From Desulfitibacter sp. BRH_c19 (GTDB lineage: Bacteria; Bacillota; DSM-16504; Desulfitibacterales; Desulfitibacteraceae), in contig LOER01000026.1 of assembly GCA_001515945.1 (NCBI GenBank), positions 62,001 to 126,000 on the forward strand: a stretch of DNA of 64,000 nucleotides, written 5' to 3'. The notes below the pieces were generated by a model, which was given only the letters and a program-made list of their open reading frames with translations, was not told where the DNA came from and searched no databases. Positions 2,964 to 25,072 of this stretch are shown here, one piece after another (the first letter of the stretch is position 1; each line of letters opens with the position of its first letter). A program made the translations under genes and the position numbers.

Positions 2964-2983
2964 ATGGAGGTATCTAGTTAAAA

Positions 2984-6209: not shown

Positions 6210-6252
6210 ATAATATAATTGTGTAGCATAACTTAGGGGATGTGATTGTGAA

Positions 6253-6762
6253 ATGGTATCAATTAAAAAGGGGTCTAATTTATTTTCCGGATTTGTTGGT
6301 GGATTAAGCACCATCTTAGATAGAATAGCTGGCTTCTGTATGTTTTCCATCATGGGATTAATTGTAATAAATGTGTTGCTTAGGACTATTTTCAATAGCT
6401 CCATTCTTGGAACATATGAGTATGTGGGTTTCTTAACTGCTGCAATGATCGGCTTGTCTTTGGCAAACTGTGCTTATGTGAGGGGTCATATTGCTGTGGA
6501 CTATTTTATGGAGCGTTTATCTCTCAAGACACAGAAAGTTACCGACGGCATAACAACCGGCACAGCTCTTTTATTTTGGGTTCTATCAGCATGGCATCTG
6601 AGTAAATACGCATATACCCTATCTCTGAGTGGTGTAGTATCACCCACTACCCAGACCCCTTTTTACTATTTCATTTATGTGCTTGCCTTTGGCCTCTTGG
6701 CCATGGGGCTAGTGTTATTAGCCAATCTAATGGAACACTTAAAAAGGTTGGTGGTAAGATGA
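6253..6762 (+). CDS. dctQ: TRAP transporter small membrane subunit (DctQ family)
   Basis: The 169-residue integral membrane protein has four hydrophobic segments, as expected for DctQ. Family features include IVINVLLRTIFN in the first helix and the charged LANCAYVRGHIAVDYF loop. It bridges the receptor to the large DctM subunit and takes part in sodium-driven uptake. The start ATG 6253 has a rather distant GGGG; no better start is visible. Its last four bases overlap the dctM start (ATGA), showing translational coupling. Confidence 0.88.
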   Translation: MVSIKKGSNLFSGFVGGLSTILDRIAGFCMFSIMGLIVINVLLRTIFNSSILGTYEYVGFLTAAMIGLSLANCAYVRGHIAVDYFMERLSLKTQKVTDGITTGTALLFWVLSAWHLSKYAYTLSLSGVVSPTTQTPFYYFIYVLAFGLLAMGLVLLANLMEHLKRLVVR

Positions 6763-8072: not shown

Positions 8073-8142
8073 TTGCGTCTCGAATGAAGAAACCATTGTA
8101 TCAGTATCACCATTCTATCAAAACATATGTGTGATGTATGTT

Positions 8143-8166
8143 CCCTCAGACTTGAGGGATTTTTTA
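8143..8166 (+). terminator. Terminator of the TRAP operon
   Basis: CCCTCA and TGAGGG pair around GACT, followed by AT and six T. The T tract touches the stop codon of the convergent VanY-like gene, so the two transcription units meet here. Confidence 0.8.
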
Positions 8167-9030
8167 TAACGCCCCTATTCCCTGATTTGCTAGATATGCC
8201 TCTAAGGTTAAATTGTTTTCGAATATTTCCAAGGCGGTATCCATTCCTACATATCGAAGGTGCCAAGGCTCGTAGCTGTATCCGGTTATATCTTCCTTGC
8301 CCTTTTCATATCTGATAACAAAACCATATTTGTGGGCATTTTCAGCTACCCACTTTCCCTCTATTGTGTCTCCAAAGCTTTTTGATAAAGAGAATTCTAC
8401 ACTTTCGCTTGTGACATCCATTGCCAATCCGGTCTGGTGTTCACTATGGCCTGGTCTTGCGCTGATTTTATCGGCCCCTGCTTGTCCTAGCCTTTTAACA
8501 TGACCCTTATAAACAGATTGCTGCAGGCTATAGGATCTAAATCCTGATACTGCATAGAGATAAGTTCCTTCATCTTCTGCAGCTATAAATAGTTCCTCTA
8601 GTGCTCTAGCTGCTACTTCACGCATGTTTTGTTTCTCATGGGAACCTGCGAAGCTAAATTTCACATCAGGGACAGTCAAATCACCTGGCGTATAATCGGA
8701 TGGTAGCTTAAAGGTTTTGTTTACCAAAATAAGAATATCATTTAAATCTGACAAGGCAATAACTTGTTCAGTATTTGTTTCTAAATCAACCGGCTCTATA
8801 GGTTTCTCTTCTGTGAAAGGTTGTTCATCTATCTTAGAATTATCATCCCAGGTTGTTTCATCCGTAGTGGGAAACTCTCTATTGTCCTCTTGTGGTTCAT
8901 CTTCTGTCACCGAGTTGTTCTCATGCGCCACCATTTCCGCATCTGCTTGTGTATTAGTCCATAAACTGATTGCAGCAAGAATAGAAAGAAATATTACTAT
9001 TGATAAGAGTAATATTTTGTTCCTAAACAT
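8164..9030 (-). CDS. VanY-type D-alanyl-D-alanine carboxypeptidase (M15B)
   Basis: The 288-residue protein has an N-terminal membrane anchor, then an acidic, low-complexity stalk (about residues 30-85) and a C-terminal M15 zinc peptidase domain. Motifs include SGFRSYSLQQSVY, the zinc signature SARPGHSEHQTGLAMD (His and Asp ligands) and EPWHLRYVG (catalytic Glu and third ligand His). It probably trims the terminal D-Ala from peptidoglycan stem peptides on the cell surface. GGGGG lies about eight bases before the ATG on the minus strand. It converges on the TRAP operon. Confidence 0.9.
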   Translation of the reverse strand: MFRNKILLLSIVIFLSILAAISLWTNTQADAEMVAHENNSVTEDEPQEDNREFPTTDETTWDDNSKIDEQPFTEEKPIEPVDLETNTEQVIALSDLNDILILVNKTFKLPSDYTPGDLTVPDVKFSFAGSHEKQNMREVAARALEELFIAAEDEGTYLYAVSGFRSYSLQQSVYKGHVKRLGQAGADKISARPGHSEHQTGLAMDVTSESVEFSLSKSFGDTIEGKWVAENAHKYGFVIRYEKGKEDITGYSYEPWHLRYVGMDTALEIFENNLTLEAYLANQGIGAL

Positions 9031-9084
9031 GGTTATTCCCCCAACAACATGGATCCTCTATAGTAAAGCAAATCATCCCCAGTC

Positions 9085-9137
9085 CCCCTTATGATACTAA
9101 AAAATTTAGCTATTACATTCATTATAAGGGGTTTTTT
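9085..9137 (+). terminator. Long-loop hairpin with T tract
   Basis: CCCCTTAT (9085-9092) pairs with ATAAGGGG (9124-9131), followed by six T. The loop is 31 bases. No gene reads into it from the left on this strand, so it may be a leader attenuator for the secreted protein gene downstream or a relic. A TATAAT at 9265-9270 is a likely -10 for that gene. Confidence 0.4.
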
Positions 9138-9329
9138 CATGCAAATACAACAAAATATCCAGATAATCTTGTTTTTTCGAAAGTTTTTTATTGATGCTGA
9201 ATTTAGAATTTTTTATACTTAAATATTGAAAACATTACCAATGAAAACTTGTCCCTAAAGCTGGTATAATTACCATTGGGGAAACGCGATTTACAAAAAA
9301 ATATCATTAAGAAATAGAGAGGGAGAGCG

Positions 9330-10367
9330 ATGCCAATACATAATGTAAGGGGGATTACCCGTAGCCATTTTTTTATGACGTTTTGTATGATATTCTTACT
9401 TTTTATGAGTTTAAGTATAACAAATATAGCTCTTGGATTTACCGTTGAGGGGAGGGATACTAGTAAGGAAACTGATTTATCCTGGGCGCTAAATCCCATT
9501 GAGGATAAGTGGTTATATGAGGAGATTAACCCAGAGATAAATATTGGTAGAAATATAGAAGTAGAAAAAACACTTGATTTAATTAAGGAATTGGAAGAGC
9601 AAGCAGAAGAAGCTGGTGCTTCGGGAGCCAAAACAGAAAAAGAAGAAGTTAATAAATCAGAAGAGAAGCCGAAAGAGAAATCCGAAGAAAAATCCGAAGA
9701 AAAATCCGAAAAGAAACCTGTACAAAATCTGGGGGACAATTTAAATAGCTATGTTCTAAGTATAATAAAAACATATGAAATAGGTAAATACCCGTACATA
9801 TTAAATACTGACTATCAAAACTATAATGGAGTAACTACTAATCTTTATTATAAGGACAAGCTTTTGCTTAAAGCCCATCCATCTGGCAATAGGGCTAGTC
9901 ATTGTACAGGAATTACCTTTGAAGTACTCTTCAAAGCAATCCAAGAAAGAAATAGAAAATTAGGAATAGATCCTAATGACTTTAATGGAATGACCTATGA
10001 CCAATTGTTTGATTTTGTAATGCAATGGTATTCAGCTTCTGGATCACAAAACGGTAATATTGCAACAGCTGTGGAGCAGTATGGAGTTGGTAAAAGGATT
10101 ACAAACTTTGAAGAACTAAGGCCTGGGGACTTTATACAATTTTTCAGAGAGAATAATACAGGCCATGTTGTTGTATTTCTTGAGTGGATAAGGGAAAACA
10201 ATAGGATAATTGGCTTAAAATATTGGGGAAGTCAGGAATCCACAAATGGAATAGCCTATAGAACTGAATACTTCAATATTACCAATAAGGACGGGAAAAA
10301 ATATGGCAATGTAATTCAAAATAATATCTATCTTGCTACTATATTCCCAGTAAGTCAGTATAAATAA
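9330..10367 (+). CDS. Secreted NlpC/P60- or CHAP-like cysteine hydrolase (putative)
   Basis: The 345-residue protein starts with a signal peptide (hydrophobic about residues 13-35). A charged linker containing three near-identical KSEE repeats follows (12-base DNA repeat near 9673-9713). The C-terminal domain has SHCTGITFEVLF, with a candidate catalytic Cys, and LRPGDFIQFF followed by TGHVVVFLEW, with a candidate His. That order of Cys, then Gly-Asp, then His is the NlpC/P60-CHAP pattern, suggesting a secreted peptidoglycan or peptide hydrolase. The family assignment is by motif only. GGGAG precedes the ATG. It is a single-gene unit ending in a terminator. Confidence 0.6.
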   Translation: MPIHNVRGITRSHFFMTFCMIFLLFMSLSITNIALGFTVEGRDTSKETDLSWALNPIEDKWLYEEINPEINIGRNIEVEKTLDLIKELEEQAEEAGASGAKTEKEEVNKSEEKPKEKSEEKSEEKSEKKPVQNLGDNLNSYVLSIIKTYEIGKYPYILNTDYQNYNGVTTNLYYKDKLLLKAHPSGNRASHCTGITFEVLFKAIQERNRKLGIDPNDFNGMTYDQLFDFVMQWYSASGSQNGNIATAVEQYGVGKRITNFEELRPGDFIQFFRENNTGHVVVFLEWIRENNRIIGLKYWGSQESTNGIAYRTEYFNITNKDGKKYGNVIQNNIYLATIFPVSQYK

Positions 10368-10373
10368 GACATC

Positions 10374-10406
10374 ATACCCCTGTTTGAGGATAGGGGTATT
10401 TTTTTT
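10374..10406 (+). terminator. Intrinsic terminator
   Basis: ATACCCC (10374-10380) pairs with GGGGTAT (10393-10399), followed by a run of T. It closes the secreted hydrolase unit. Confidence 0.85.
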
Positions 10407-10427
10407 GCGCCTGGTAATAAAATATTA

Positions 10428-10488
10428 TTGACAGACAAAGACTATATATATTATACTTAGAACAAATAGTACGGTATACGAAATATAC
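10428..10488 (+). promoter_or_regulatory. marR promoter and candidate operator
   Basis: TTGACA (10428-10433) and TTATAC (10451-10456) are separated by exactly 17 bases, a near-consensus vegetative promoter. Downstream, GTATA and TATAC arms with a 5-base spacer (10474-10488) make a palindrome before the ribosome site, where a MarR dimer could bind for autoregulation. Confidence 0.7.
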
Positions 10489-10501
10489 GGAGGATGCAAC
10501 A

Positions 10502-10981
10502 ATGCAGTTTGATAATTTGATGGACATTTTTTTTGATAATCTTAAAAAATTGTTTTATCCCGAAGAATGGATAGGTTTGGATCTCTCACTTTCCAAAACA
10601 GAGATGTTTACACTCTTGTTAGTAGATAGACATAAGGAAATAATCATGAGCCAGATTGCAGATTATATAAATATACCTATGAGTACTGCTACGGGAATTG
10701 TAGATAGACTTGTCAAAAAGGGATATTTAAAGCGAGATAGAAGTGATTATGATCGTAGAATTGTTGTACTCCAACTTACTGAAGATGGACAGCATTTGCT
10801 GGATAACTTCAAAGTAAGTGTAAATAAATATATTGATATTATTAACCAGGGACTTACTGAGGAAGAAAGAGAGTTTTTATTTAAAATCATGCTCAAAGCA
10901 GTAAAACTAGTTAGTCAAAGTAATGCCAGTGAACTGCAAGAAACAGAAGTAAAAAAGATTAAGAAGATTAATATTGAATAG
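10502..10981 (+). CDS. MarR-family transcriptional regulator
   Basis: The 159-residue protein has the winged-helix MarR fold. LSKTEMFTLLLV precedes a recognition helix in IPMSTATGIVDRLVKKGYL, and the wing signature DRSDYDRRIVVLQLTEDG follows. The C-terminal helix would form the dimer interface, and the tail is Lys/Glu-rich. GGAGG lies eight bases before the ATG. The family usually represses its own gene or a neighbouring exporter, here possibly the downstream genes. A promoter and a palindrome directly upstream support autoregulation. Confidence 0.92.
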   Translation: MQFDNLMDIFFDNLKKLFYPEEWIGLDLSLSKTEMFTLLLVDRHKEIIMSQIADYINIPMSTATGIVDRLVKKGYLKRDRSDYDRRIVVLQLTEDGQHLLDNFKVSVNKYIDIINQGLTEEEREFLFKIMLKAVKLVSQSNASELQETEVKKIKKINIE

Positions 10982-11093
10982 AATAGGCTTTTTGTTTTAG
11001 TTTAGCTAGATAGCCCACCAATAGAGTGGGCCATCTACAAAGCATTTAGTACGAGTAACGTAATATCCTAAATATGAATGAATAATATTAATT

Positions 11094-11143
11094 GGGGACA
11101 GTCCTTTGCCACAAAGCTAGACCTGTAATTGAGGTGTGTCCCC
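11094..11143. repeat. REP-like inverted repeat (GGGGACA...TGTCCCC)
   Basis: GGGGACA (11094-11100) and TGTCCCC (11137-11143) bracket 36 bases that contain an inner CTTTG/CAAAG hairpin. This GGGGACAGTCC type is familiar from Firmicute intergenic repeats linked with REP-associated Y1 transposases. No transposase gene is nearby. Confidence 0.55.
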
Positions 11144-11166
11144 ATACATTAACGGAGGGGATTTAA

Positions 11167-12345
11167 ATGAGAATTATATTATATACTGGAAAAGGTGGCG
11201 TAGGAAAAACTAGTGTTGCTGCTGCATCAGCAGTAAAAATTGCTAACGAAGGGTATAAAACCTTGGTTGTTAGTACTGATCCAGCTCACAGTTTAGGCGA
11301 TTCCTTTGATCTGAAATTATCAGCTGAACCAATTGAAATAACAGAAAACCTATGGGCTCAGGAGATTGATAGCATGCACGAGGTAGAAAAGGGATGGGGT
11401 CAAGTACAAAAATATTTGACTACCCTTTTTACTGCTAAAACTGTAAAAGATATTACTACAGAAGAGCTTACTGTTTTTCCTGGCATGGAAGATCTTTTAA
11501 GTCTGATTAGGATTTTAAAGTATTACAAAGAAAAGACATATGATGTAATAATTATAGATTGTGCTCCAACTGGCGAAACCTTAGCATTTCTAAGCTTTCC
11601 TGATATGTTAAGGTGGTGGATGGATAAATTATTCCCAATAAAGAGAAAAGCTTTGAAGATTTTCAAACCAATAGCTGAGCCTATATTAGGACTACCCATG
11701 CCTACGGATGGAGTTATGGGCGAAATTGAAAATATCTATAATCAGTTGGATGAGATGAGGCATATTTTATCAGATAGAGAAATAACCAGCGTTAGGGTTG
11801 TAGTTAACCCAGAAAAAATGGTTATCAAAGAAGCACAACGTAGCTTCACCTATTTGAATATTTATGACTTTAATGTAGATGCAATTATAGTAAACAGGGT
11901 TATCCCCGACGATGTATCCGATGAGTACTTTAATATATGGAAGGATACTCAAAAAAAGTATAAGGAAATCATTTACGATAGTTTTTCACCTGTACCAATC
12001 TATAATGCTCCACTTTTTGAAAGAGAAGTTGTTGGTCTGCAAATGCTTAAAAGAATGGGAGATACAGTATTTGGCGAGGAAGATCCAGCTAGTATAAAGT
12101 TTAATTCTAGAACCCAATACGTTGAAAAAGATGGAGATGAGTACCTCTTTACAATCCATATGCCTTTTACAGAGAAGGGTGATTTGTCTCTGAATCAAAA
12201 AGGAGATGAGTTAATAATTAAAGTGGGAAGTATCAAAAGGAATATAGTTTTACCTAGAACTCTCTTAAATCTATCAGTAGTAGGTGCAAAATTTGAGGAT
12301 GAAGTGTTAAAGGTTAGATTTGGAGGTGGCGGAGATGAAAAATAG
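11167..12345 (+). CDS. ArsA/GET3-family anion-transporting ATPase with HSP20-like tail
   Basis: The 392-residue protein starts with the deviant Walker A of the family, GKGGVGKTSVA, followed by the switch motif STDPAHSLGDSFD. A second switch, IIDCAPTGETL, lies near residue 135. The last about 80 residues (from YLFTIHMPFTEKG) form a beta-rich segment like the HSP20-type domain attached to many bacterial ArsA homologues. The protein is probably a membrane-targeting or substrate-handling ATPase rather than an arsenite pump, as no arsenic genes are nearby. It overlaps the next small gene by 11 bases. Confidence 0.85.
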   Translation: MRIILYTGKGGVGKTSVAAASAVKIANEGYKTLVVSTDPAHSLGDSFDLKLSAEPIEITENLWAQEIDSMHEVEKGWGQVQKYLTTLFTAKTVKDITTEELTVFPGMEDLLSLIRILKYYKEKTYDVIIIDCAPTGETLAFLSFPDMLRWWMDKLFPIKRKALKIFKPIAEPILGLPMPTDGVMGEIENIYNQLDEMRHILSDREITSVRVVVNPEKMVIKEAQRSFTYLNIYDFNVDAIIVNRVIPDDVSDEYFNIWKDTQKKYKEIIYDSFSPVPIYNAPLFEREVVGLQMLKRMGDTVFGEEDPASIKFNSRTQYVEKDGDEYLFTIHMPFTEKGDLSLNQKGDELIIKVGSIKRNIVLPRTLLNLSVVGAKFEDEVLKVRFGGGGDEK

Positions 12346-12553
12346 CTCAATAAAGGAAATCATAAAGCTTAAGCTTAAATTAGCCGATAACGTAATAGAT
12401 TTGTTTCCAGATCCAATAGGAGACCAGGTAAAGGAATTAAAGAAAACTATGTTAGACGCCATTATTGAAGCTGATCAAGAGAATCAAGACGAAAATCGGG
12501 AGCAAAAAGAAAGAGGTATGATTAAACCAATAAATATTTTAACCCTTTTGTAA
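12335..12553 (+). CDS. Small helical protein coupled to ArsA-like ATPase
   Basis: This is a 72-residue protein. ATG 12335 is preferred because GGAGG lies eight bases upstream inside the ArsA-like gene; an in-frame TTG at 12320 has no such site. The sequence is highly charged and helical (IKEIIKLKLKLADNVIDLFP, then KELKKTMLDAIIEAD), without membrane segment or known motif. The 11-base overlap with the ATPase gene indicates translational coupling, so it probably acts with the ATPase. I do not recognise a named family. Confidence 0.65.
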   Translation: MKNSSIKEIIKLKLKLADNVIDLFPDPIGDQVKELKKTMLDAIIEADQENQDENREQKERGMIKPINILTLL

Positions 12554-12614
12554 CTGGATAGTTTAAAATAGGGATAAGATTTGTTTTTCAGATTCGGTTA
12601 ACGGGGGGATTACT

Positions 12615-13250
12615 GTGATAGGTATTTTTTTCCAATCACTACTTATTGGGTATTCTGGAGCGATGATGCCTGGATCTTTGTTTACATATACAGTAGATAG
12701 AAGTATACGCCATGGAACAAAGACGGGATTGATTGTATCACTTGGACATTCGCTTCTTGAATTGGTTTTAGTAATTTTAATATTTCTAGGAGCTGGAAAA
12801 TATCTCTCTACAGATATGGCCAGAGCCGTCATAGGGCTGATAGGCGGAGTGGTTTTAGGATTTCTGGGATTTGGAATGATAAAAGACGTATATTTGAACA
12901 AAATTTCATTAGATACTGAAGACAACAAAAGTACTAAACAGGGAAATATGTTTTTAGCAGGTGCAGTACTAAGTGCAACCAATCCGTATTTCATCATCTG
13001 GTGGTCAGCGGTAGGTCTTACATTAATAATGAATTCTTACTATGCTTTTGGCATTACCGGTATTGCAATATTTTATATTGGACATATATTAGCTGATATT
13101 TCGTGGTTTACCTTTGTTGCTGCCCTTATAAGCAAGACAAGGCACCTAATAAATATTAAGGCATATAAGGTGATAATTGTTGTTTTAGCAGTTTGCCTTA
13201 TAGGTTTCGGAGTTACTTTCTTCGCAAGCGGTATAAGATATATATCATAA
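12615..13250 (+). CDS. LysE/RhtB-family amino-acid exporter
   Basis: The 211-residue polytopic membrane protein has about six hydrophobic segments. It shows the LysE pattern: PGSLFTYTVDRSIRHG near the start with the family's proline-glycine loop, GHSLLELVLVILI in the second helix, and ATNPYFIIWWSAVG around residue 120. The family exports amino acids or related metabolites. GTG 12615 follows GGGGGG at a normal distance. A terminator follows directly. The substrate is unknown. Confidence 0.88.
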   Translation: MIGIFFQSLLIGYSGAMMPGSLFTYTVDRSIRHGTKTGLIVSLGHSLLELVLVILIFLGAGKYLSTDMARAVIGLIGGVVLGFLGFGMIKDVYLNKISLDTEDNKSTKQGNMFLAGAVLSATNPYFIIWWSAVGLTLIMNSYYAFGITGIAIFYIGHILADISWFTFVAALISKTRHLINIKAYKVIIVVLAVCLIGFGVTFFASGIRYIS

Positions 13251-13263
13251 TTTCTTTAATATC

Positions 13264-13295
13264 AAGCACCTTTCTCTTATTGAGAGGTGCTTTTT
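13264..13295 (+). terminator. Terminator after lysE-like gene
   Basis: AGCACC and GGTGCT pair, with an inner TCTC/GAGA, around TTAT, followed by five T. Confidence 0.8.
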
Positions 13296-13348
13296 GCAAT
13301 TAATTGTCTCTGTATTTTACTTAGAGTAACTGTATGAAGCTAAGAAAC

Positions 13349-13368
13349 TGACAAGATCCTGACAAGAT
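13349..13368 (+). promoter_or_regulatory. Direct repeat upstream of XRE regulator
   Basis: TGACAAGAT occurs at 13349-13357 and 13360-13368, an 11-base period, so both copies face the same side of the helix. The rest of the 245-base region before the regulator is very AT-rich. It may be a regulator binding site; no partner protein is proven. Confidence 0.3.
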
Positions 13369-13495
13369 ATGAAATATATATATTATAAATTGCAATATAT
13401 AATTTACATTAAGACATATATAATATATAATAATGACAAATGTTGCTATAACAGTTTTTTGAAAGCTTTTTTGAAAAGAGACGGGGTTATAGAGA

Positions 13496-13690
13496 ATGAA
13501 GAATATAAAATTGAAGTTAGCAAGAGTTGAAAAGGATTTATCGCAAGAACAACTGGCAGAAAATGTTAATGTGACGAGACAAACTATTGGTTTAATAGAA
13601 GCTGGTAAGTATAATCCTACACTCAAACTTTGTATTGCGATATGCAAAGAACTGAACAAAACTTTAAATGATATTTTCTGGGAGGACTGA
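13496..13690 (+). CDS. XRE-family helix-turn-helix regulator
   Basis: The 64-residue protein is almost entirely one Cro/CI-type helix-turn-helix: LKLARVEKDLSQEQLAENVN, then VTRQTIGLIEAGKYNPTL, then a short NDIFWED tail. Such minimal regulators commonly sit directly upstream of a small membrane protein gene and control that pair. Here the membrane gene starts four bases after the stop. The ribosome site before ATG 13496 is weak. Confidence 0.9.
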   Translation: MKNIKLKLARVEKDLSQEQLAENVNVTRQTIGLIEAGKYNPTLKLCIAICKELNKTLNDIFWED

Positions 13691-13693
13691 GTA

Positions 13694-14134
13694 ATGAAAA
13701 AGATTGAAGATGAAAGAATCATCACAGAGAAAAGAAGGATTAATTCAAATGCATTTGGAATATGTTTTTTATTATTATGGGCGATATTATTAGTTAGGCA
13801 ATTTGTGCTACAGCAGACTATTATGGAATATATTGATATATTTTTGCTAACAATTGGTCTTTCAATATATATTACTGCAAATAGTGTGCTTAAAGGTCTC
13901 TATTTAACATATAGGAGTAAAAATGTTAGAAAAAAATCAAATTTAATAGGTGCTTTTGTCGGGTTATCAACATTTACGATTGTGCAACTTTTTGTAATGA
14001 GTTATGATCTTACCAATTGGCAAGATGTTCTTAATTTGATAGTGTCAGGGATAGCATTTTTTATTGCTTGGATAACGATTCAAAATATTTTATTTAAAAT
14101 TAGTGAAAAAAAGTCAAATAAAGATATAGAATAG
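13694..14134 (+). CDS. Four-helix membrane protein paired with XRE regulator
   Basis: The 146-residue protein has four hydrophobic segments (about residues 22-38, 45-62, 85-102 and 112-132) and a Lys-rich C-terminal tail. It resembles the DUF6773/DUF3796-like proteins encoded after short XRE regulators, but I place it there by context and shape rather than motif. Its GGAGG overlaps the stop of the regulator gene, so the two form one operon. No enzymatic motif is seen, and the function is unknown. Confidence 0.7.
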   Translation: MKKIEDERIITEKRRINSNAFGICFLLLWAILLVRQFVLQQTIMEYIDIFLLTIGLSIYITANSVLKGLYLTYRSKNVRKKSNLIGAFVGLSTFTIVQLFVMSYDLTNWQDVLNLIVSGIAFFIAWITIQNILFKISEKKSNKDIE

Positions 14135-14552: not shown

Positions 14553-14663
14553 GCTATCTACGGAACATATGAAAAATAAAAAACTATAAGTAGGATTATG
14601 AGCATTTTTCCCGAATTACATACAACAAATGTATTAAGAATACTTTTTCAAGGAGAAGGCCAA

Positions 14664-16829
14664 ATGTCAATTATAAAAATGTTTCAGAGTAAATTTAAGA
14701 ATCGCCAAGCTTCATATATGATGGTTACAATTCTAGCTATGCTGGAAAGCTGTTCAGGTGAAGGAGCAGCTAATATTGATGATGTCGTTACATTATTTCG
14801 GAAGTTTTATAAAACCAGAATAGAGAATGATAAGCTGCCTGAAAAAAATGATAGAGACATGGCAAATGTAGATTCAATGTCACTACAGCAAATTAAATCA
14901 CTAGTATTAAGAAATCCGGTACATCATTTAAATGGTCTTATAATTTATGATAGTAATCAGGGTTTATTGAGGTTTAAAAAGGAAATTGCTAACCAGTTAA
15001 ATGGCTCAACAAAAAGGGAATTAAGAATGGTAGCCTATCAGAATTTATATGGTTACTATAAAAGCTTAGATACCTATCAAATAACAACAAAAGACCTAGC
15101 AGATTTACCAATAGGTTATGCAGTTTCTGCAAAAGATATATCATTATTGTCTAAGCAGAATCAGATGAAAGGTATTCATCCAATACAAAATGATAGTTTC
15201 AAAGCCGTCATCATTTTATGCACAATCGGGGGTGAGCAGCATCCCAATGAATGGCTGGACCATGAAAAAACTTTATTAAAATATTATCTAGAAAGCAGAA
15301 CCGGTGCAGAGGGCAAAAAAGTTTATAATGAAAACCTTTCTACAAATAGATCAATAAGCAACTCTTTGCAAGATGGATATCCACTATATGTTTTTGTAAG
15401 AGAACAAAAAGGAGAGCTTTTCCATTATGAAGGCAAATTTCTTTATAAACAACTGGTTACAGAGGATGATGGTGATATGTATTTTGAATTAGAGAGCGAA
15501 AAGGGTGAGGAAATAAGTAATGGTAGTATACCTGATGTTAGCAAAGAAGAAATACTGAAAGCCCTAGAAGAATTTGACCTTACAAAAAGAAATACACCAG
15601 ACTGGATAGATTGGGATAAAAAGAAAAGACAGAAATATGCAATTCTTTTTAAAAACAAAATCTATCCACCTAAATATATTGTAAAAATGGCTACAGGTAT
15701 TAATGTTGGTCTTTTTAGTGGAGGGGAACAAACAAATTCTTACCTTACTAAGAGAGGATTCGAAATAATAGCGTTAAACAATGAGCTTCCAGGAGATGTG
15801 AAAGATATTTTAGGGCATATCTATAAATATATTAAAAGTAAGGGGTTTAATTATGAGCTTAGCTTTATACAGAACTTTCTTCTTAGTTTAAAAACCAAAC
15901 CCTTTTTAATTCTAGCTGGAATATCAGGAACTGGAAAGACTAAAATGGTTGAGCTTTTCGCTGAGGCTGTTGGTGCTACTACTTTAAATGGACGCTATAA
16001 TTTAATTCCAGTAAGACCCGATTGGAATGACAGTACTGATTTGCTAGGCTACAGTAATTTGCAGGGTGAATTTGTGCCGGGAAAACTAACCCAGATTATT
16101 TTCGCAGCCCAAAGCAATTCAAAATATCCATATTTTATATGTCTGGATGAGATGAACTTAGCCAGGGTTGAGTATTATTTTAGTGAGTTTCTAAGTATTA
16201 TGGAGTCGCGTAAAAGTATTAATGGGGTAATTACTAGTGCTCCTATTACAGTAAATGGACTCAAGGATATTATAACTTTTCCAGAAAATCTATACGTGAT
16301 TGGTACTGTGAATATGGATGAAACAACCCATCCATTTAGTCGTAAGGTATTAGATAGAGCTAATACTTTAGAGTTTTCAGAAATTGATTTAAGTAACTTC
16401 CCAGAGCAGTCAGTAGAAAAACAAAAAGTTATGTTAATAGAGAATGACATACTTCGAAGTGAATTCTTGACATTAAAAGACTGTTATGCTGGCAATGAAG
16501 ATTTCATTAAGGAAAAGGTTAAAATTCTTGGTGAAATCAATGAAATCTTAATGCCTTCTGGATTAAGTATAGGATATAGAATCCGAGACGAATTTAGTAT
16601 TTATCTCTTTTACAATAAAAGGTGGAGTCTATTATCAGAAGATAAAGCCATAGACTATCAAATTATGCAAAAGATATTACCCCGTATTCATGGTAGTTCA
16701 ATGGGAGTAGAAGATATTCTAAAAGAACTTGAGCAATTTTTAAGCAGTAAATATCCGATGAGCAAAAGGAAAATTGAGTTTATGTTGAGGAGGTTCTCTG
16801 AAGATGGCTTTACCTCCTTCTGGCTCTAA
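14664..16829 (+). CDS. McrB-like AAA+ NTPase of a McrBC-type restriction system
   Basis: The likely start is ATG 14664, with AGGAG eight bases upstream, giving 721 residues. An earlier in-frame ATG at 14598 has a weak site. The N-terminal half holds a segment with YPPKYIVKMA and LFSGGEQTNSYL (about residues 330-365), a module often attached to restriction enzymes. The AAA+ core follows: Walker A GISGTGKT (about 420), Walker B YFICLDEMNLA (about 490) and GTVNMDE (about 550), the McrB nucleotide-specificity region. It overlaps the partner nuclease gene by 26 bases. It is expected to translocate or remodel DNA for that nuclease. Confidence 0.85.
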   Translation: MSIIKMFQSKFKNRQASYMMVTILAMLESCSGEGAANIDDVVTLFRKFYKTRIENDKLPEKNDRDMANVDSMSLQQIKSLVLRNPVHHLNGLIIYDSNQGLLRFKKEIANQLNGSTKRELRMVAYQNLYGYYKSLDTYQITTKDLADLPIGYAVSAKDISLLSKQNQMKGIHPIQNDSFKAVIILCTIGGEQHPNEWLDHEKTLLKYYLESRTGAEGKKVYNENLSTNRSISNSLQDGYPLYVFVREQKGELFHYEGKFLYKQLVTEDDGDMYFELESEKGEEISNGSIPDVSKEEILKALEEFDLTKRNTPDWIDWDKKKRQKYAILFKNKIYPPKYIVKMATGINVGLFSGGEQTNSYLTKRGFEIIALNNELPGDVKDILGHIYKYIKSKGFNYELSFIQNFLLSLKTKPFLILAGISGTGKTKMVELFAEAVGATTLNGRYNLIPVRPDWNDSTDLLGYSNLQGEFVPGKLTQIIFAAQSNSKYPYFICLDEMNLARVEYYFSEFLSIMESRKSINGVITSAPITVNGLKDIITFPENLYVIGTVNMDETTHPFSRKVLDRANTLEFSEIDLSNFPEQSVEKQKVMLIENDILRSEFLTLKDCYAGNEDFIKEKVKILGEINEILMPSGLSIGYRIRDEFSIYLFYNKRWSLLSEDKAIDYQIMQKILPRIHGSSMGVEDILKELEQFLSSKYPMSKRKIEFMLRRFSEDGFTSFWL

Positions 16830-19350
16830 AGTTCAAGAGCTTTTAGTAATAACTACAGAGGATTTCAACCTAACTATTAAGGGAGTACCCAGCAATAAAA
16901 CAGTTGAAGGGTTCAAGCTTCATTTAGATAATAGTGGAATTCCGATAAAAGCCAACTTGGAGATATCCCCTGGACATAATTCAGTTAAAGTGTATGACCC
17001 TTACTCATCTACAGGGCTTTCAGAATATGATGGAGGGAAGATTTCTCCTTGCTTTTTTGAGCGTACTAATTATGAAATTATTTTGGAGAGAAAAGAAGGA
17101 TGTAAAAAGAAGATTACAATTGACCATCTGAATAGAAAACTGAGAGAAGCAATCACTCCTACTGGAACAAGTGGGAGTATACTTTCAGGTATTGTAAATT
17201 TTAATGATGAAGTAGGATTCTCGCGTTTTGATGTTTTAGGCGATGTTTACATATTGCTCTCATTTGAAATTGAAGTTTTTCCTAGCAAGTTGGATTATAG
17301 GAAGGATTTTTGGATTTTACTCCAAGAAGTCAATGAGGAGATATATAATTTGGCATTTGATTTCTTAATGAAAACTAGTTTTGCTGCTTCCATTAGGAGT
17401 TCTAGAGATGATCCGTCCCAGGCGGAATTTTATTATATTATTAGTTCCATTTTTGATAAATTACATAATTCTCTAAACAGAGTTTGTAATCAACCCCATC
17501 ATAAAATTGTTAGGGTTAATAATATAGTATCACCAGAGAAAGTAAAGAAGACTGATACAAAAACCCTTAGTTGGATTAGCCGTAGGGCTCACCTTTTGCA
17601 GAAGTCTTCAACTGGTATAGATATAAATGGAACAAGATATATTCCAAGAAAGATTATTAACGGTAGAAAAGAATTAACATATGATACATACGAAAATCGA
17701 TTTTTAAAATGGATAATTAAGAAAATAGACAGCAAACTTCATGCCTTCCTACAGAAGTATGAAGGCATTTCAGATAAGAATTTGGAAGGTAAAGTAATCA
17801 ATAGTTGTAGGTTAATGAGAAAAAGGCTTAGAGCATTCTACAACAACAGCTTTCTAAAAGATGTTGGGGATTTATCTCAAATTGAACAGTTTTCATTGGT
17901 GATGCAAAATGCCCCAGGATATAAAGATGTGTATAAGTACTATTTAATGCTTTCAAAAGGTTTGAACATAAAGTCTGATCTATTTGATTTATCTATTAAA
18001 AACTTAGCTGAGCTTTACGAATACTGGTGTTTTCTAAAATTAAATTCTCTGTTACGAAAAAGATATATTATGGAGAAAAACTCTATGCTTTCCATAGATA
18101 GAAATGGTATGGTAGTAACCCTAGCGAAGGGGCAAAAATCCGAGCTAGTATACCTAAATCCAAAGCATAACGAAAGGATTAGGGTTATATATAATAAAAA
18201 GTTTATTGATCTACCAACAATTGCTCAAGCTCCTGATAATATGCTCATTTTAGAAAAGTCCAAATCTAGAACTAATTTTTACTATATTTTTGATGCAAAA
18301 TATCGGATAAGTAATGATGATCAATACATAAGAACTTTTAACCAGCCTGGTCCACCTGAGGATGCAATCAATTCTATGCATCGTTATAGAGATGCTATAG
18401 TTTCTGCAGTTGAAAATAAGTCTGATTTTCAACGAAATATATTTGGAGCATTTATCCTATTCCCCCATAACGATGAATTAATGTTTTCTGGTAGAAAAGA
18501 AAAACAAGCAAACAAGTTTTTTGAGAGTATTGAAAAAGTAAGCATAGGGGCGTTGCCCTTTTTACCTAGCCAAACTACCCTTGTCGAAGAGTTTTTAGAT
18601 GAATTACTGTTGGAATCTCATAATACTTCATTTGAGAGGTCAATAGTCCAAGAAGGAGCAGAGGAATATTCAACAACTGAAGCTAATAAACGTAATGTAT
18701 TAATTGGTCCATTAGGAAGAAAAGATCAGCTTCAGGTTTGCCTTGACAATGACATTTACTACACATATTTAAAGGAAGTACAGTCCATCTTGAAAGATTT
18801 GGAATATGTTGCTATATATCAGTCAAAGGCTAAGTTCAAAAATTCTATAGAACAGGGAATTTTGCATTATGGTAGAATTAAGAATTTGGATATTCTTAGA
18901 AGGTCAGAATTAATAGAAATGCCAGCGAGAGGCAAATATGATCAACTAATTGTAAAGTTCCATGTGGAAAGATGGATAAAAAGGGATCCAAGAATAATAC
19001 CTGCTGGTTACGGTCCTGCTAGCCCTCAATGTACCAGTTGGTCTCTATTTGAGGAAGCCAGAGTTTATCCAGAATTACATTTAGCGAATAAAGCTGAAAT
19101 AAGATTATGGCGAGAACTAAAACGTTTTGATGAAAGAGGCAAGATTAAGTTTCCTAAACAGCAAATAGATAGCCAAGATGTTATAGAATTGCTGGAGTTT
19201 CCTGGGCTTGTAGTGGAGAGAAATAAAAATGATGGGTTTAATATTAATATTAATGGAAAAGAAAAGGAGTATTCTTTTGATACTTTAAATCAACGTCCTG
19301 GAAAAATTATAAAAGAGATATTAAAAATGTGGTATGGGGATTGTGGATAG
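16804..19350 (+). CDS. DUF2357-type PD-(D/E)XK nuclease partner of McrB
   Basis: This is a large 848-residue partner of the McrB-like ATPase. The middle part shows LAELYEYWCFLKL and YYIFDAKYR (Asp and Lys near residues 498-500), then SMHRYRDAI. That is the DUF2357/DUF524 PD-(D/E)XK pattern found in McrC-like subunits. From about residue 635 a separate domain begins (YVAIYQSKAKF, ILHYGRIKN), which resembles PUA/EVE-like modified-base readers only loosely. GAGGAGG lies ten bases before ATG 16804 inside the McrB-like gene. The pair probably cuts foreign or modified DNA; target specificity is unknown. Confidence 0.75.
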   Translation: MALPPSGSKVQELLVITTEDFNLTIKGVPSNKTVEGFKLHLDNSGIPIKANLEISPGHNSVKVYDPYSSTGLSEYDGGKISPCFFERTNYEIILERKEGCKKKITIDHLNRKLREAITPTGTSGSILSGIVNFNDEVGFSRFDVLGDVYILLSFEIEVFPSKLDYRKDFWILLQEVNEEIYNLAFDFLMKTSFAASIRSSRDDPSQAEFYYIISSIFDKLHNSLNRVCNQPHHKIVRVNNIVSPEKVKKTDTKTLSWISRRAHLLQKSSTGIDINGTRYIPRKIINGRKELTYDTYENRFLKWIIKKIDSKLHAFLQKYEGISDKNLEGKVINSCRLMRKRLRAFYNNSFLKDVGDLSQIEQFSLVMQNAPGYKDVYKYYLMLSKGLNIKSDLFDLSIKNLAELYEYWCFLKLNSLLRKRYIMEKNSMLSIDRNGMVVTLAKGQKSELVYLNPKHNERIRVIYNKKFIDLPTIAQAPDNMLILEKSKSRTNFYYIFDAKYRISNDDQYIRTFNQPGPPEDAINSMHRYRDAIVSAVENKSDFQRNIFGAFILFPHNDELMFSGRKEKQANKFFESIEKVSIGALPFLPSQTTLVEEFLDELLLESHNTSFERSIVQEGAEEYSTTEANKRNVLIGPLGRKDQLQVCLDNDIYYTYLKEVQSILKDLEYVAIYQSKAKFKNSIEQGILHYGRIKNLDILRRSELIEMPARGKYDQLIVKFHVERWIKRDPRIIPAGYGPASPQCTSWSLFEEARVYPELHLANKAEIRLWRELKRFDERGKIKFPKQQIDSQDVIELLEFPGLVVERNKNDGFNININGKEKEYSFDTLNQRPGKIIKEILKMWYGDCG

Positions 19351-20201: not shown

Positions 20202-20638
20202 TTGACAAATAAACATAGATCTATAGATACTATATATTCTACAGGTAAAGTGTTTGTTTTGAAGGAATAGATCATGTAGGTAAATCAATGATTGTGACCA
20301 AATTGAGCGAACGCTTGAAAGATATGAATATCGATTATTCTGCTTATAGTTTTCCGGGTAAAGAGAGCCGTACATTAGGTGCAATTGTGTACGATTTGCA
20401 TCACAATCAAGAAGCCTTTGTTGATAAACAAATTGACGCATTAAGCTTACAAATTCTACATGTGGCCGCACATATCGATACGATAAAAAATAGAATTATT
20501 CCCGATTTGAAAGCGGGAAAGATTGTTCTTTTGGATAGATTTTGGTGGTCAACTTATGCCTATGGAGTTGCAAATGGTATTAATAAAAGTATACTTAAGG
20601 ATATTATTTTACCAGAAAAAAAGTACTTAGAAAGGTAG
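20202..20638 (+). pseudogene. Thymidylate-kinase-like gene, frameshifted and short
   Basis: The main frame encodes FEGIDHVGKSM (P-loop of thymidylate kinase) and LDRFWWSTYAYG (the DRX region). It has no start codon in frame and ends after about 130 residues, whereas the family is about 200. A start with a good ribosome site (GGGGG before TTG 20202) lies in another frame, which reads into VFV just before FEGID. One missing T near 20256-20261 would join the two. I read it as a decayed nucleotide kinase that preceded the TIR-like gene, though a sequencing error is possible. Confidence 0.7.
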
Positions 20639-20739
20639 CAATATGATGGTAATTAATAATGCCACTATTAATGTATGTAATATGATGTTTATGATAACAG
20701 TTGAAACACGAACTCGAAAAAATAGAAGGGGGAATTAGA

Positions 20740-21276
20740 ATGTCTGATGTTAAACATCGAGCTTTTATCTCATATCATCATGATGATCAAGAGGAAGTGG
20801 ACGATTTCTTAACTACGTTCAGTGATGAACGAAACGTATTCACTTACAGAGCGGTTGGAGCAATGAGCGACGATATTATCAATAGTGATAATCCCGAATA
20901 TGTGATGAGTCAAATAAGACAGAAATATTTGAAAGATTCTACTGTAACGATTGTACTCATCGGAAAATGTACATGGGCACGTCGTTATGTCGATTGGGAG
21001 ATTAAAACTAGTTTGCGTCGTGGAAGTTATACTCCGAACGGTCTAATAGGTATTTTATTATCTTCAATGGGAAATACAGCTAAGCCCCCCAAACGTCTTA
21101 AAGCTAATTTGATAGGAGACAATGCGGACGAAGGGTATGCAAGGTGGTATACATATCCAAAGCGAAAAGATAGCTTGCAAAACTGGATAGAGGATGCATT
21201 TCAAGCACGACAATCGCGGGCTGACCTAATAATTAATTCAGCAGACATGTTCAAAAATAATCGTTCATGTGATTAG
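20740..21276 (+). CDS. TIR-like (DUF1863/ThsB-type) protein
   Basis: The 178-residue protein starts at ATG 20740 with GAAGGGGG about eight bases before. It shows the TIR-like fold of the MTH538/ThsB family: AFISYHHDDQEEVDDF at the start, then STVTIVLIGKCTW, then YVDWEIKTSL with Glu87 as the likely catalytic residue. Members make a cyclic ADP-ribose-type signal from NAD+ or otherwise act in antiphage signalling (Thoeris ThsB). No ThsA-like effector is seen. The next gene encodes a membrane protein that may be the effector. Confidence 0.8.
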   Translation: MSDVKHRAFISYHHDDQEEVDDFLTTFSDERNVFTYRAVGAMSDDIINSDNPEYVMSQIRQKYLKDSTVTIVLIGKCTWARRYVDWEIKTSLRRGSYTPNGLIGILLSSMGNTAKPPKRLKANLIGDNADEGYARWYTYPKRKDSLQNWIEDAFQARQSRADLIINSADMFKNNRSCD

Positions 21277-21330
21277 TAAGGGGGGATATGTACGAAAGAA
21301 GTAGTTTCAATCACATTTAATGCTTGGAAG

Positions 21331-21930
21331 TTGGAGATTCATATCTCACTACTTTTTTTGCTTGTATTATTATTAATGTTTTTTCTATGGAAGCAAGTTA
21401 CATTACGCCGTTTTGGACATCACGAAGTAGTTGAATTAGAAATTACTCTTGGTGGAATGGGGAGAATGTTAATTAAACCAAGTTATGATGAAATGAGGAT
21501 AGCACATAAGGCTTGGGTAGAGTTATCAACTCGTAAGGCAGGCCTTCTTTTTGATGAAGAAGACGATGTAATTGTTGAAGTTTATGATTCATGGTATCAG
21601 CTATTTCGGGAAATGAGGGTGCTAGTTAAGGAAATCCCTATTGAAAGAATCAGGACACAAAAAAGTACTGGTCAACTTGTTAAAGTGTTAATTGGAGCAC
21701 TAAATAAAGGGTTGCGCCCACATCTTACAAGATGGCAAGCTAAATTTCGTAGGTGGTATGAATGGCGTATAGAACAAGAGAATAAAAATGATGGTATGCT
21801 AACGCCACAGGAGTTGCAACGGGAATATCCTCATTATGAACAGTTAAAAGAAGAGCTAAAAATTATCAATGTTGAGCTAATTCAGTACGTTAATGAACTT
21901 GAAAAGCTTGCACATGGTGATAAACCCTGA
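21331..21930 (+). CDS. Membrane-anchored partner of the TIR-like protein
   Basis: The protein has one N-terminal membrane helix (about residues 6-20) and a soluble part of about 175 residues rich in basic and aromatic residues (RWQAKFRRWYEWRIEQENK), with helical character toward the end. Only TTG 21331 is available in frame. A good GGGGGG-ATG lies at 21288, but it is out of frame by one base. The frame before the TTG is open and reads TKEVVSITFNAWKLE, so a one-base insertion or an error may have hidden the true start. No known family is recognised. It is a plausible membrane effector or anchor. Confidence 0.6.
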   Translation: MEIHISLLFLLVLLLMFFLWKQVTLRRFGHHEVVELEITLGGMGRMLIKPSYDEMRIAHKAWVELSTRKAGLLFDEEDDVIVEVYDSWYQLFREMRVLVKEIPIERIRTQKSTGQLVKVLIGALNKGLRPHLTRWQAKFRRWYEWRIEQENKNDGMLTPQELQREYPHYEQLKEELKIINVELIQYVNELEKLAHGDKP

Positions 21931-22210: not shown

Positions 22211-23062
22211 ATGAATTCAAATAACAATATAGTTTTGAATAGAGTTTTCACCCGAAATATGTTTACTGATTTGCTCACGGAGCAGTCGAATAGTGCATAC
22301 GGTGAAGTTATTAAACGATATATTGAAAACATTGGTACGAAAAGCAATAAAATCCTCATAAGTGAAATATATAATATTATGTCACATAGTTATAGAAACG
22401 AGTATATATATAAAAATACATTACTAAACAAATTGTTAATTGCCAAACATAGCTTGAGAACGACCACGGCTTTAACGGAGATACCAATTAGTAAATCAAA
22501 AGCTGACTTCTTATTAATAAATGAAAAAGCTGTTATTTATGAGATCAAAACAGAATTGGATAGTTTTGATCGTCTTGAAAGCCAATTGAACGATTACTAT
22601 AAAGCTTTTGATCATGTTTGTGTAGTAAGTTGTGAAGAGAATCAAAAGAAGTTAGAAATATTATTAAAAGACACCCCTGTTGGTATTTATATTTTGACTA
22701 AAAGTAATAGGCTCAGGTACAAAAAAGAACCTGTTAGAGATGGCTCAAACTTAGATTCAAAAGTTATGTTTAAGATTTTAAGGAAAAAGGAATTTGAGAA
22801 TATTATCAATACTGATTACGGAGAACTTCCTAAGGTAACGCAAGTAAATCATTATAATGAATGTTACAAGCTTTTTAAAAATATAAAAATCGACATTGCA
22901 TACCAATATATGTTAAATGAGCTTAAAAAGAGAGCTACAATAGAAATCGAGGAATATAAAGATATTCCTTATGAATTGAAATTTTTAGCATATTTCTCAA
23001 AATATAAAAAGTCTGACTATAGGAAGTTAAATAATTTCTTAAATAATAAATTTGGAGGATAA
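22211..23062 (+). CDS. sce7726-family protein (PD-(D/E)XK-like)
   Basis: The 283-residue protein carries a nuclease-like core: SKADFLLINEKAVIYEIKTE, with Asp99, Glu111 and Lys113 in D...ExK order, followed by LESQLNDYYKAFDHVCVV. This is typical of the sce7726 family. GAAAGGGG precedes ATG 22211, and TATAAT at 22170-22175 may be a -10. The family lies beside sce7725-type genes in many bacteria, as here. It is presumably a nuclease or a nuclease-derived binding protein; its target is unknown. Confidence 0.8.
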   Translation: MNSNNNIVLNRVFTRNMFTDLLTEQSNSAYGEVIKRYIENIGTKSNKILISEIYNIMSHSYRNEYIYKNTLLNKLLIAKHSLRTTTALTEIPISKSKADFLLINEKAVIYEIKTELDSFDRLESQLNDYYKAFDHVCVVSCEENQKKLEILLKDTPVGIYILTKSNRLRYKKEPVRDGSNLDSKVMFKILRKKEFENIINTDYGELPKVTQVNHYNECYKLFKNIKIDIAYQYMLNELKKRATIEIEEYKDIPYELKFLAYFSKYKKSDYRKLNNFLNNKFGG

Positions 23063-23066
23063 CTTT

Positions 23067-24002
23067 ATGTATTTCCCATATTTACGTGGAAGACAATATG
23101 AGTTGCTTGCTTTATGCGAGTTAGTTGATGCTGACCGCATCGGAGATTATATTATACCAATAATTGAGCCAGTAAAACTATCCTCTACATTCAATAGAGT
23201 TCTGAGTTCTTTTATAAATAATGGGAAGAAAATAGCCGTTATTCATAATCCACAGGTAGGATCTTTTCCTAATGACCTAGAAGATGAAAAGAAAAATGTA
23301 TATAGAGAGAAATATGAAGATTTATTGAAAAATGATTTAATTATTAAAGCTCATATTTTAAATAGCAGTTCAAAGAGAGAAATTAAGGATTTTGAAACAC
23401 AAGGGTTTGATAAAAAAGATTTATTGGTAATATGTAATAACCGCGATTATATAGATTTATTTTTCGAAGTATTTTCCGTAGTAATTCCATATTATACGCT
23501 TATCCCGGACGAAAGTGTTTTTAGACGTAAAATTAAAAGAAACAAGGTTCTCCTCGATGATAAATTTGAAAAACAAAATAGGAATATTGATTATGTAGAG
23601 GTTTTTGATGAGGCCTTCTCAGATGATCATTTGTATTATAAAGATGATGGTTTTATAGCATTTTCAGACTATTCTATTGTAGGGGACAATTATTTAGAAG
23701 CAGGCTTTGCACCATATGCTGTAGCATTACATATTGTGTATTTTGCTGAAGATCAGAGTTTACGAGTTAGGCACTTCGTATCTAATTCCAATGAAGATAT
23801 AACAAACCCAGCAGGAAAGTTTTATGAAGCATTAATAAAACTAAATGATTGGGATAAGGCACATGAAATGGATACAGCTGGCTTGACAGGACTATTAACT
23901 CATTTCGAGAATGAAACATATCCAGGTTTAGGAACGGTAAAGAAACTCTCAATGATGCATCATATCGAATTGCTTGGGCAATATCTTGATGGAGTGGAGT
24001 AA
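23067..24002 (+). CDS. sce7725-family protein
   Basis: The 311-residue protein starts at ATG 23067, with GGAGG at the end of the preceding gene and four bases after its stop. It begins MYFPYLRGRQYELLAL and shows IIPIIEPVKL, PYYTLIPDES and a conserved-looking GDNYLEAGFAPYAVALHI block. These are hallmarks of the sce7725 family, reminiscent of TIM-barrel or beta-family proteins of phage and defence loci (inference). It always seems to travel with sce7726. It probably recognises or processes something for the cassette. Confidence 0.75.
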   Translation: MYFPYLRGRQYELLALCELVDADRIGDYIIPIIEPVKLSSTFNRVLSSFINNGKKIAVIHNPQVGSFPNDLEDEKKNVYREKYEDLLKNDLIIKAHILNSSSKREIKDFETQGFDKKDLLVICNNRDYIDLFFEVFSVVIPYYTLIPDESVFRRKIKRNKVLLDDKFEKQNRNIDYVEVFDEAFSDDHLYYKDDGFIAFSDYSIVGDNYLEAGFAPYAVALHIVYFAEDQSLRVRHFVSNSNEDITNPAGKFYEALIKLNDWDKAHEMDTAGLTGLLTHFENETYPGLGTVKKLSMMHHIELLGQYLDGVE

Positions 24003-24004
24003 AG

Positions 24005-25072
24005 ATGATATGTTGTGAAAAGTGCTTTAGTGATATAGAAATCAAAGCTGTGGTTAGTAGCTTAGGGGAAAAGGGTATATGTGAATTATGCGGAAAAAGG
24101 AATGTATTTATTTATAATACAGATACAAACAATGAATTAGCTGAGATGTTTGATGATTTGTTGAATATATATACTACTAAAGAAGATTTACCTGTTGATT
24201 ATCCTCTTGAGAATGTAAATCTTTTGAAAGATGAGCTTTGTAGACGGTGGAATATTTTCAGTATTGAAAGCGATCTAGCATATAGAGCAATTACTAGTAT
24301 CTGTCAGGAGAAATATGAAGAACATCCAGAAATATTTGATGGTCCAATAGGGATTTTAGAATTAAATCAAAAAGAATTTCTTAAAGAACATTCTATTATA
24401 AAAAACTTTGAATGGGAAAATTTTGTTGAAGGGATCAAGACTCAAAATCGTTTCCATACAGATTACATAAACAAAGAAGTATTATTCTCTTTCTGCAATT
24501 ATATAAGAAAAACATATAAGGTCGGGACTGAATTCTACAGAGCAAGGATCTGCTCAAATGAGTTGGGATTTACTATTGACCAAATGGGTGCACCTCCTGT
24601 TGGAAAAGCCACAGCTGGAAGAGCCAACCCTATGGGAATAAGTTGTCTATATCTTGCAGATAGCGGTGAAACAGCTCTTAATGAAATAAGAGCGGGTGTT
24701 TATGACTATGTGGCTATAGGAAAGTTTGTACTTCAAAAAGAGATTGAAGTTGTCAACCTAACCCTAGTGGATCAGATTAGCCCTTTCTGGGGGATGGACA
24801 ATACAATTCATGCAGTAAATAAAAAATATCTACAGAAAATAGGTATAGATATCGCAAAACCTCTCCGTAGATATGACAGTCCGCTTGATTATTTACCAAC
24901 ACAATATATTAGTGATTTTATAAAAAGCAGAGGTTTTGACGGCATAGAGTATAAAAGTACGATGAACAAAGATGGCTTTAACCTTGCCATATTCGATGAA
25001 AGACTATTTAAATGCATAACGGTAGGCGTTTATGATATTCGAGAGTTGAAGTATACTTATGATAAAATATAG
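24005..25072 (+). CDS. RES-domain protein with zinc ribbon and HEPN/RES N-terminus
   Basis: The 355-residue protein opens with a zinc-ribbon-like CxxC...CxxC (CCEKC and CELCGK), then a helical N-terminal region of about 130 residues. A RES domain follows: FYRARICSNE (Arg, about residue 180), YLADSGETALNEIRAG (Glu, about 225) and DGIEYKSTMN (Ser, about 318). RES domains of toxins such as MbcT degrade NAD+, so this is a likely NAD+-depleting effector. It begins two bases after sce7725. No separate antitoxin gene is seen, so control may lie in sce7725/sce7726 or the N-terminus. A terminator follows. Confidence 0.82.
   Translation: MICCEKCFSDIEIKAVVSSLGEKGICELCGKRNVFIYNTDTNNELAEMFDDLLNIYTTKEDLPVDYPLENVNLLKDELCRRWNIFSIESDLAYRAITSICQEKYEEHPEIFDGPIGILELNQKEFLKEHSIIKNFEWENFVEGIKTQNRFHTDYINKEVLFSFCNYIRKTYKVGTEFYRARICSNELGFTIDQMGAPPVGKATAGRANPMGISCLYLADSGETALNEIRAGVYDYVAIGKFVLQKEIEVVNLTLVDQISPFWGMDNTIHAVNKKYLQKIGIDIAKPLRRYDSPLDYLPTQYISDFIKSRGFDGIEYKSTMNKDGFNLAIFDERLFKCITVGVYDIRELKYTYDKI

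Follow-up and report, generated by a model that had tools for sequence, protein, structure and literature searches.

A conserved sce7726-sce7725-RES gene trio related to gop-beta-cII, a candidate abortive-infection cassette

Introduction

Two described three-gene systems come close to the locus presented here. The gop-beta-cII system of satellite phage P4 defends E. coli from lambda and P1, and its Gop protein is toxic without Beta (PMC9122126). PD-lambda-2 is a toxin-antitoxin-like abortive-infection system with a Beta-related third component (Vassallo et al. 2022, PMC9519451). This component, PD-lambda-2C, is described as related to a P4 antitoxin; it is dispensable for toxin neutralisation and required for defence against lambda (PMC9519451). 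A further point of comparison is given by the RES enzymes, which phosphorolyse NAD+ to ADP-ribose-1''-phosphate and act as toxins in RES-Xre modules (PMC9503650). In a Delftia island, RES was described together with an 'ATP-binding protein', sce7726 and NADAR, the group being given no function (PMC8248536). No paper on a function of sce7725 or sce7726 was found in the literature searched, nor was a RES-bearing version of gop-beta-cII found in that literature, which was mostly without subscription papers and preprints.

Gene layout of the trio

The window analysed here is a stretch of 64,000 nt from Desulfitibacter sp. BRH_c19 (contig LOER01000026.1, positions 62,001-126,000), and all coordinates in Table 1 are positions within it. 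The three genes of the trio are complete and co-directional, and each of them is preceded by a purine-rich ribosome site. Their tight spacing, with gaps of 4 and 2 bases as given in the preliminary description, was borne out. The start of the sce7725 gene was set at an ATG because its homologues begin with MYFPYLRG; the mechanical ORF begins upstream at TTG 23052. The GC content of the trio is 31%, against 36-37% in the window stretches 1-14000 and 26000-64000. A promoter scan gave a number of sites no greater than that obtained in shuffles.

Table 1. Coordinates of the trio and of its upstream neighbours in the window
Feature	Position	Strand	Remarks
McrBC-like pair	14598-19350		two overlapping genes
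Thymidylate-kinase-like ORF	20288-20638		116 aa
ThsB-type TIR gene	20701-21276		
TIR gene and 199-aa protein gene	20701-21930		possible separate pair
sce7726 gene (gene A)	22211-23062	+	283 aa, ATG start
CTTT spacer, genes A/B	23063-23066	+	4 bases, from sequence
sce7725 gene (gene B)	23067-24002	+	311 aa, ATG start
AG spacer, genes B/C	24003-24004	+	2 bases, from sequence
RES gene (gene C)	24005-25072	+	355 aa

A single RES domain is present in the BRH_c19 genome. The Xre/MbcA antitoxin domain (PF09722) is absent from the whole genome, and no such gene lies in the operon. Two further genomes of the genus have neither sce7725 nor sce7726, and a search of same-genus genomes with the DNA of a neighbouring gene gave no counterpart.

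The McrBC-like and TIR-like genes that had been named as neighbours are real and lie upstream of the trio. The McrBC-like restriction pair consists of a McrB-like AAA protein and a DUF2357/PDDEXK_7 protein, the gene of the latter having no PADLOC match. No ThsA was found alongside the ThsB-type TIR protein. The TIR gene is followed by one for a 199-aa protein of no family with an N-terminal hydrophobic stretch, and the two may form a separate pair of TIR and membrane protein. The short thymidylate-kinase-like ORF covers only part of the family profile and is perhaps a fragment.

Conservation and distribution

Among genome contigs, the best 80 sce7725 loci were inspected; as the closest matches they form a biased sample, in which a few genes are broken up by frameshifts or truncated at contig ends. 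All of them have sce7726 upstream and 78 have RES downstream, with gene order and strand the same throughout these 78. They include Bacillota, Spirochaetota, Actinomycetota, Pseudomonadota, Synergistota and Melainabacteria. Such recurrence of the ordered trio in 78 of the best 80 loci shows that the arrangement is not due to chance: the three genes form a genuine conserved unit. Conserved linkage to RES, which the preliminary description had proposed to look for, is supported for the clade of the window trio.

The two exceptions without RES are L059 and L088. In L059 (9142-12909), the sce7726-sce7725 pair is followed by a gene for a 354-aa Macro-domain protein, which overlaps sce7725 by 8 bases, and then by an ADP-ribosylglycohydrolase gene, possibly an effector swap inside an NAD+/ADP-ribose theme. 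Another variant is represented by sce7725 genes of the Listeria/Enterococcus type (L003:3108-4957, L002:4306-5957, L102-L104 and L128), which occur without sce7726 and RES. The gene preceding them encodes, by inspection, a D...ExK (MmcB-like) nuclease look-alike with no Pfam match.

Sampling was extended to 399 Bacillota genomes drawn evenly. Nine of these contain sce7725, eight with RES and one as a broken fragment without it. Matches to sce7726 above the cut-off were obtained in 23 genomes, the gene lying beside sce7725 in 9, beside Beta in 11, beside neither in 3 and beside both in none. Each of the 20 genomes with a Beta-superfamily gene has sce7726 as its neighbour, and RES adjoins sce7725 only, never Beta. 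In E. coli, the whole trio was found in 18 of 5,426 genomes at 95-99% identity, using a Salmonella copy as query.

A looser picture emerged from viral contigs: of 33 distinct sce7726-sce7725 loci, 9 have RES and 23 lack it, the last one being truncated where its contig stops. The preliminary description had also named the opposite outcome, homologues mostly without RES and without defence genes nearby; this does not hold in the clade of the trio, while RES-less pairs are common in viral contigs. A P4-like satellite (L115:4559-8909) carries a RES-less pair near a primase gene, the product of which is 88% identical to P4 alpha over the part compared. A comparison limited to the C-terminal part of P4 alpha did not support an assignment of the L138-type loci to P4 satellites.

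RES switches between present and absent at least 5 to 7 times on the sce7725 tree, and yet its presence is strongly clustered there. Pairwise distances among the three proteins correlate with r values of 0.90-0.91 (45 loci); the near clade alone gives 0.76-0.80, and shuffles do not exceed 0.36. These correlations partly reflect the shared descent of the hosts.

The sce7726 and sce7725 proteins

The gene A protein scored 177 bits against NCBIfam sce7726 (NF033832, cut-off 70) and matched PADLOC cll with an E-value of 9e-15. Residues E64, D99, E111, K113, D117, R121 and Q125 are invariant across 75 sce7726 proteins, P4 cII included. The AlphaFold model (pLDDT 94) resembles restriction-endonuclease-like folds (ACE1/Cas4-like, SfsA, NucS, Hjc) at marginal E-values, the best being 2e-3. 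The invariant D99...E111-x-K113 and E64, together with these fold matches, fit a D...(D/E)xK site within a core like that of restriction endonucleases. The earlier view of the first gene as D...ExK nuclease-like is supported by the invariant motif and the predicted fold, and sce7726 is predicted to be a PD-(D/E)xK nuclease-like protein.

For the gene B protein, 338 bits were obtained against NCBIfam sce7725 (NF033831, cut-off 60). The Pfam Beta_protein model (PF14350) does not match sce7725. HHalign, on the other hand, aligned sce7725 with P4 Beta at 95.6-97.1% probability over 302-304 columns and at 97.9% in global mode, two unrelated profiles used as control giving 0.1%. A Beta-only HMM matched 30 of 173 sce7725 proteins at E < 1e-3. 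Beta and sce7725 both have the motif Y-x-P-x-L...E close to their N-terminus, and they also share a P, a D (D201) and an H late in the sequence (H299). By profile comparison, sce7725 is remotely homologous to P4 Beta over its full length, and the two are best described as a homologous superfamily, not as the same family.

The sce7725 model (pLDDT 95) is TIM-barrel-like. Solved structures matching the model are mostly beta/alpha barrels with low TM-scores; among viral proteins, an uncharacterised one from a Gordonia phage matches the model best (E 2e-9). When all three trio families were searched by sequence against solved structures, no credible relatives came up. From its model and by analogy with Beta, sce7725 is predicted to be a TIM-barrel-like protein with a control function.

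With such a nuclease site, invariant across 75 proteins, the sce7726-sce7725 pair could be the defence system itself: a barrel-controlled nuclease would attack phage DNA, and RES would serve as a fail-safe when the pair is inhibited or fails. RES-less pairs are indeed common in viral contigs and occur in the P4-like satellite, but the window clade nearly always keeps RES (78 of the best 80 loci, eight of nine in the Bacillota sample) and RES co-diverges with the pair. The Listeria/Enterococcus variant, in which sce7725 lies beside the D...ExK look-alike recognised by inspection, would also fit. However, the nuclease activity is a predicted one, and the killer of gop-beta-cII is Gop, not cII (PMC9122126). 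Overall, this explanation is considered unlikely.

The RES protein

The gene C protein scored 59 bits against Pfam RES (PF08808, cut-off 23), the RES domain being C-terminal (residues about 179-351). Residues R179, R181, R206, Y216, E227, Y296, S318 and N326 are invariant across 65 RES proteins; the catalytic roles assigned to them follow the RES literature. A zinc ribbon of the type CxxC...CxxC (C4, C7, C26, C29) is near-invariant in the same 65 proteins. The HEPN/RES N-terminal model (PF18870) matched the middle region of the window protein with an E-value of 0.016, below the curated cut-off, and 23 of the 65 relatives at E up to 0.01. The third gene had been presented as encoding a RES protein with a zinc ribbon and a HEPN/RES-type N-terminus; the first two elements stand, while the HEPN label is weak. 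Homology to RES and the conserved residues suggest that the trio's RES protein depletes NAD+, and the gene C protein is thus a predicted NAD+ phosphorylase effector.

Mobility and neighbouring genes

Seven E. coli loci, some of them probably closely related, were inspected. Tyrosine recombinases and a relaxase adjoin the trio there, an arrangement typical of a mobilisable integrative element, and further copies are borne on plasmids and an ICE. Kiwa was found near the trio in six of the seven loci and a type III-A retron in the seventh; caspase, TIR and cyclase (Pycsar-like) genes adjoin it in three. Farther out, single loci contain BREX with AbiE, or type I restriction with McrBC. Known defence genes accompany the trio in all seven loci, which supports the defence-island setting suggested at the outset. 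PADLOC reported 178 families in 150 flank proteins and 91 in 140 controls, figures that count families and not proteins and include one control stretch with a type III CRISPR locus.

In an E. coli locus (L265:14004-16869), PADLOC recognises the sce7726 gene alone, as cll, with sce7725 and RES unmatched. As a result, the trio would be missed or displayed as an orphan cll. In E. coli UTME-9 (L266:15844-16868), a single case, the RES gene is annotated as frameshifted with both partner genes intact, as would be expected if RES were the costly toxic part.

The nature of the carriers (plasmids, an ICE, integrative elements) and the tight operon raise the question of a toxin-antitoxin module for stability, in which RES would be the toxin and sce7725, with or without sce7726, the antitoxin. 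Such a module would retain mobile elements, any phage defence being incidental. RES enzymes are toxins in RES-Xre modules (PMC9503650), but defence has been shown for two three-gene systems with relatives of the pair's proteins, and the E. coli neighbours are mostly defence genes. The invariant nuclease residues of sce7726 also exceed the needs of an antitoxin, and a stability module appears improbable.

Still less credible, and in our view very improbable, is a housekeeping or metabolic operon for NAD+/ADP-ribose turnover with no role in conflict. The trio has a sparse, patchy distribution (9 of 399 Bacillota genomes, 18 of 5,426 E. coli genomes, absent from the two same-genus genomes), differs in GC content from its surroundings (31% versus 36-37%) and is borne on mobile elements. 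These features argue against a metabolic role, in spite of the one locus where a Macro-domain gene replaces RES next to an ADP-ribosylglycohydrolase gene and of the NADAR gene adjoining RES in the Delftia island (PMC8248536).

Proposed mechanism

The reading favoured here, which we consider reasonably probable, is that the trio is a cassette for phage defence by abortive infection, toxin-antitoxin-like in kind and related to gop-beta-cII, with RES replacing the toxin Gop. The basis of this reading is the gene order, the conservation, the homology that links sce7726 to cII and sce7725 to Beta, the intact active-site residues, the mobility and the defence neighbours. The control pair would be formed by sce7726 (cII-like, with a nuclease fold) and sce7725 (a Beta-like barrel). 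In the uninfected cell, sce7725, alone or with sce7726, would hold the RES enzyme inactive. Upon infection, a phage-borne signal sensed through the pair would free the RES enzyme, which would then split NAD+ with phosphate. NAD+ would drop, and the cell would stall or die ahead of phage release. The restraint by sce7725, the phage trigger, the NAD+ phosphorolysis and the nuclease role are the parts of this scheme that we infer.

Several observations bear on how the RES protein is attached to the pair. The absence of RES from 23 of the 33 distinct viral-contig pairs indicates that the pair may act alone and that RES may be an addition. Zinc-ribbon RES proteins occurring in phage contigs without the pair suggest that such proteins do not always depend on sce7725. 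Taken together, RES-less pairs and pair-less RES point to recombinable parts, so that RES could be a second line behind a working pair. Restraint by sce7725 is uncertain, as PD-lambda-2C does not neutralise its toxin. Since relatives of Beta are found in two validated systems, they may serve as triggers as well as restraints.

More tentatively, cII/sce7726 and Beta/sce7725 could be a general phage-sensing control module wired to unrelated killers, namely Gop, RES and perhaps the Macro-domain protein of L059; we rate this as less likely than not. If true, the Beta superfamily would be the shared sensor-inhibitor of gop-beta-cII, PD-lambda-2 and the RES system, and the conserved barrel residues E12, D201 and H299 would form a ligand or partner site.

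The homology ties sce7725 and sce7726, two widely annotated NCBI families named by serial number, to a system whose role in defence has been shown by experiment and whose mechanism is unexplained. The predicted toxic output, loss of NAD+, offers a measurable read-out for the Beta/cII pair, and the natural copies of the trio in E. coli make the role of the pair directly testable there.

Comparison with known systems

With the RES-Xre modules (Res-Xre, MbcTA, NatTR), the trio shares the RES domain, its invariant Arg, Tyr, Glu, Ser and Asn residues and a predicted NAD+ phosphorolysis. It differs from them in its partner genes, in a genome without the Xre/MbcA antitoxin domain, and in the extra zinc ribbon and N-terminal region of its RES protein, for which no solved chain was found by sequence. 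The trio was rejected as a RES-Xre module, PF09722 being absent from the genome and from the operon.

Stand-alone zinc-ribbon RES proteins of Bacillus-type phages (L209, L219, L222, L225, L227) resemble the gene C protein in their zinc ribbon, PF18870-type region and RES domain, the PF18870 match of the L209 protein being at the cut-off, and differ in having no adjoining sce7726 or sce7725. A possible partner for RES is the HTH/MerR-like protein encoded ahead of it in L219, L222 and L225, which is similar in all three.

PD-lambda-2 is close in its Beta-related third component and in being a toxin-antitoxin-like abortive-infection system (Vassallo et al. 2022, PMC9519451). P4 Beta itself matches PADLOC's PD-lambda-2 C component. 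The partners in PD-lambda-2 are, however, a HigB-like toxin and an Xre-peptidase fusion instead of sce7726 and RES; the PD-lambda-2 gene set is absent from the trio, where only the Beta-like element has a counterpart.

The closest likeness is to gop-beta-cII. P4 cII belongs to the same NCBIfam family as the gene A protein (151 versus 177 bits), and the P4 record itself names cII as an sce7726 protein. P4 Beta is the remote homologue of sce7725 found over its full length with HHalign, and both systems have three genes and are borne on mobile elements, the P4-like satellite L115 carrying the RES-less pair. The views that no described system resembles the trio and that no separate antitoxin is seen are not supported as they stand: sce7726 and sce7725 are homologous to cII and Beta of an experimentally shown system, and Beta, to which sce7725 corresponds, is a known antitoxin.

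The differences concern content and layout. The window operon contains no Gop-like gene and has a RES protein instead. In P4, gop lies upstream of Beta, and Beta and cII are arranged tail to tail, whereas the trio genes lie in series with sce7726 first; the same contrast between Beta/cII and sce7726/sce7725 is seen among the Bacillota loci. A Gop-like membrane protein is encoded upstream of Beta in P4, in L174 (E 1e-8) and, weakly, in L176. In the same position, an ImmA/IrrE-type peptidase was found in L228 (Pfam) and, by inspection, in L199, L200 and L232, and some Beta loci have nothing evident upstream. Lacking Gop and being arranged differently, the trio is not gop-beta-cII in the strict sense; by analogy, it probably works like gop-beta-cII.
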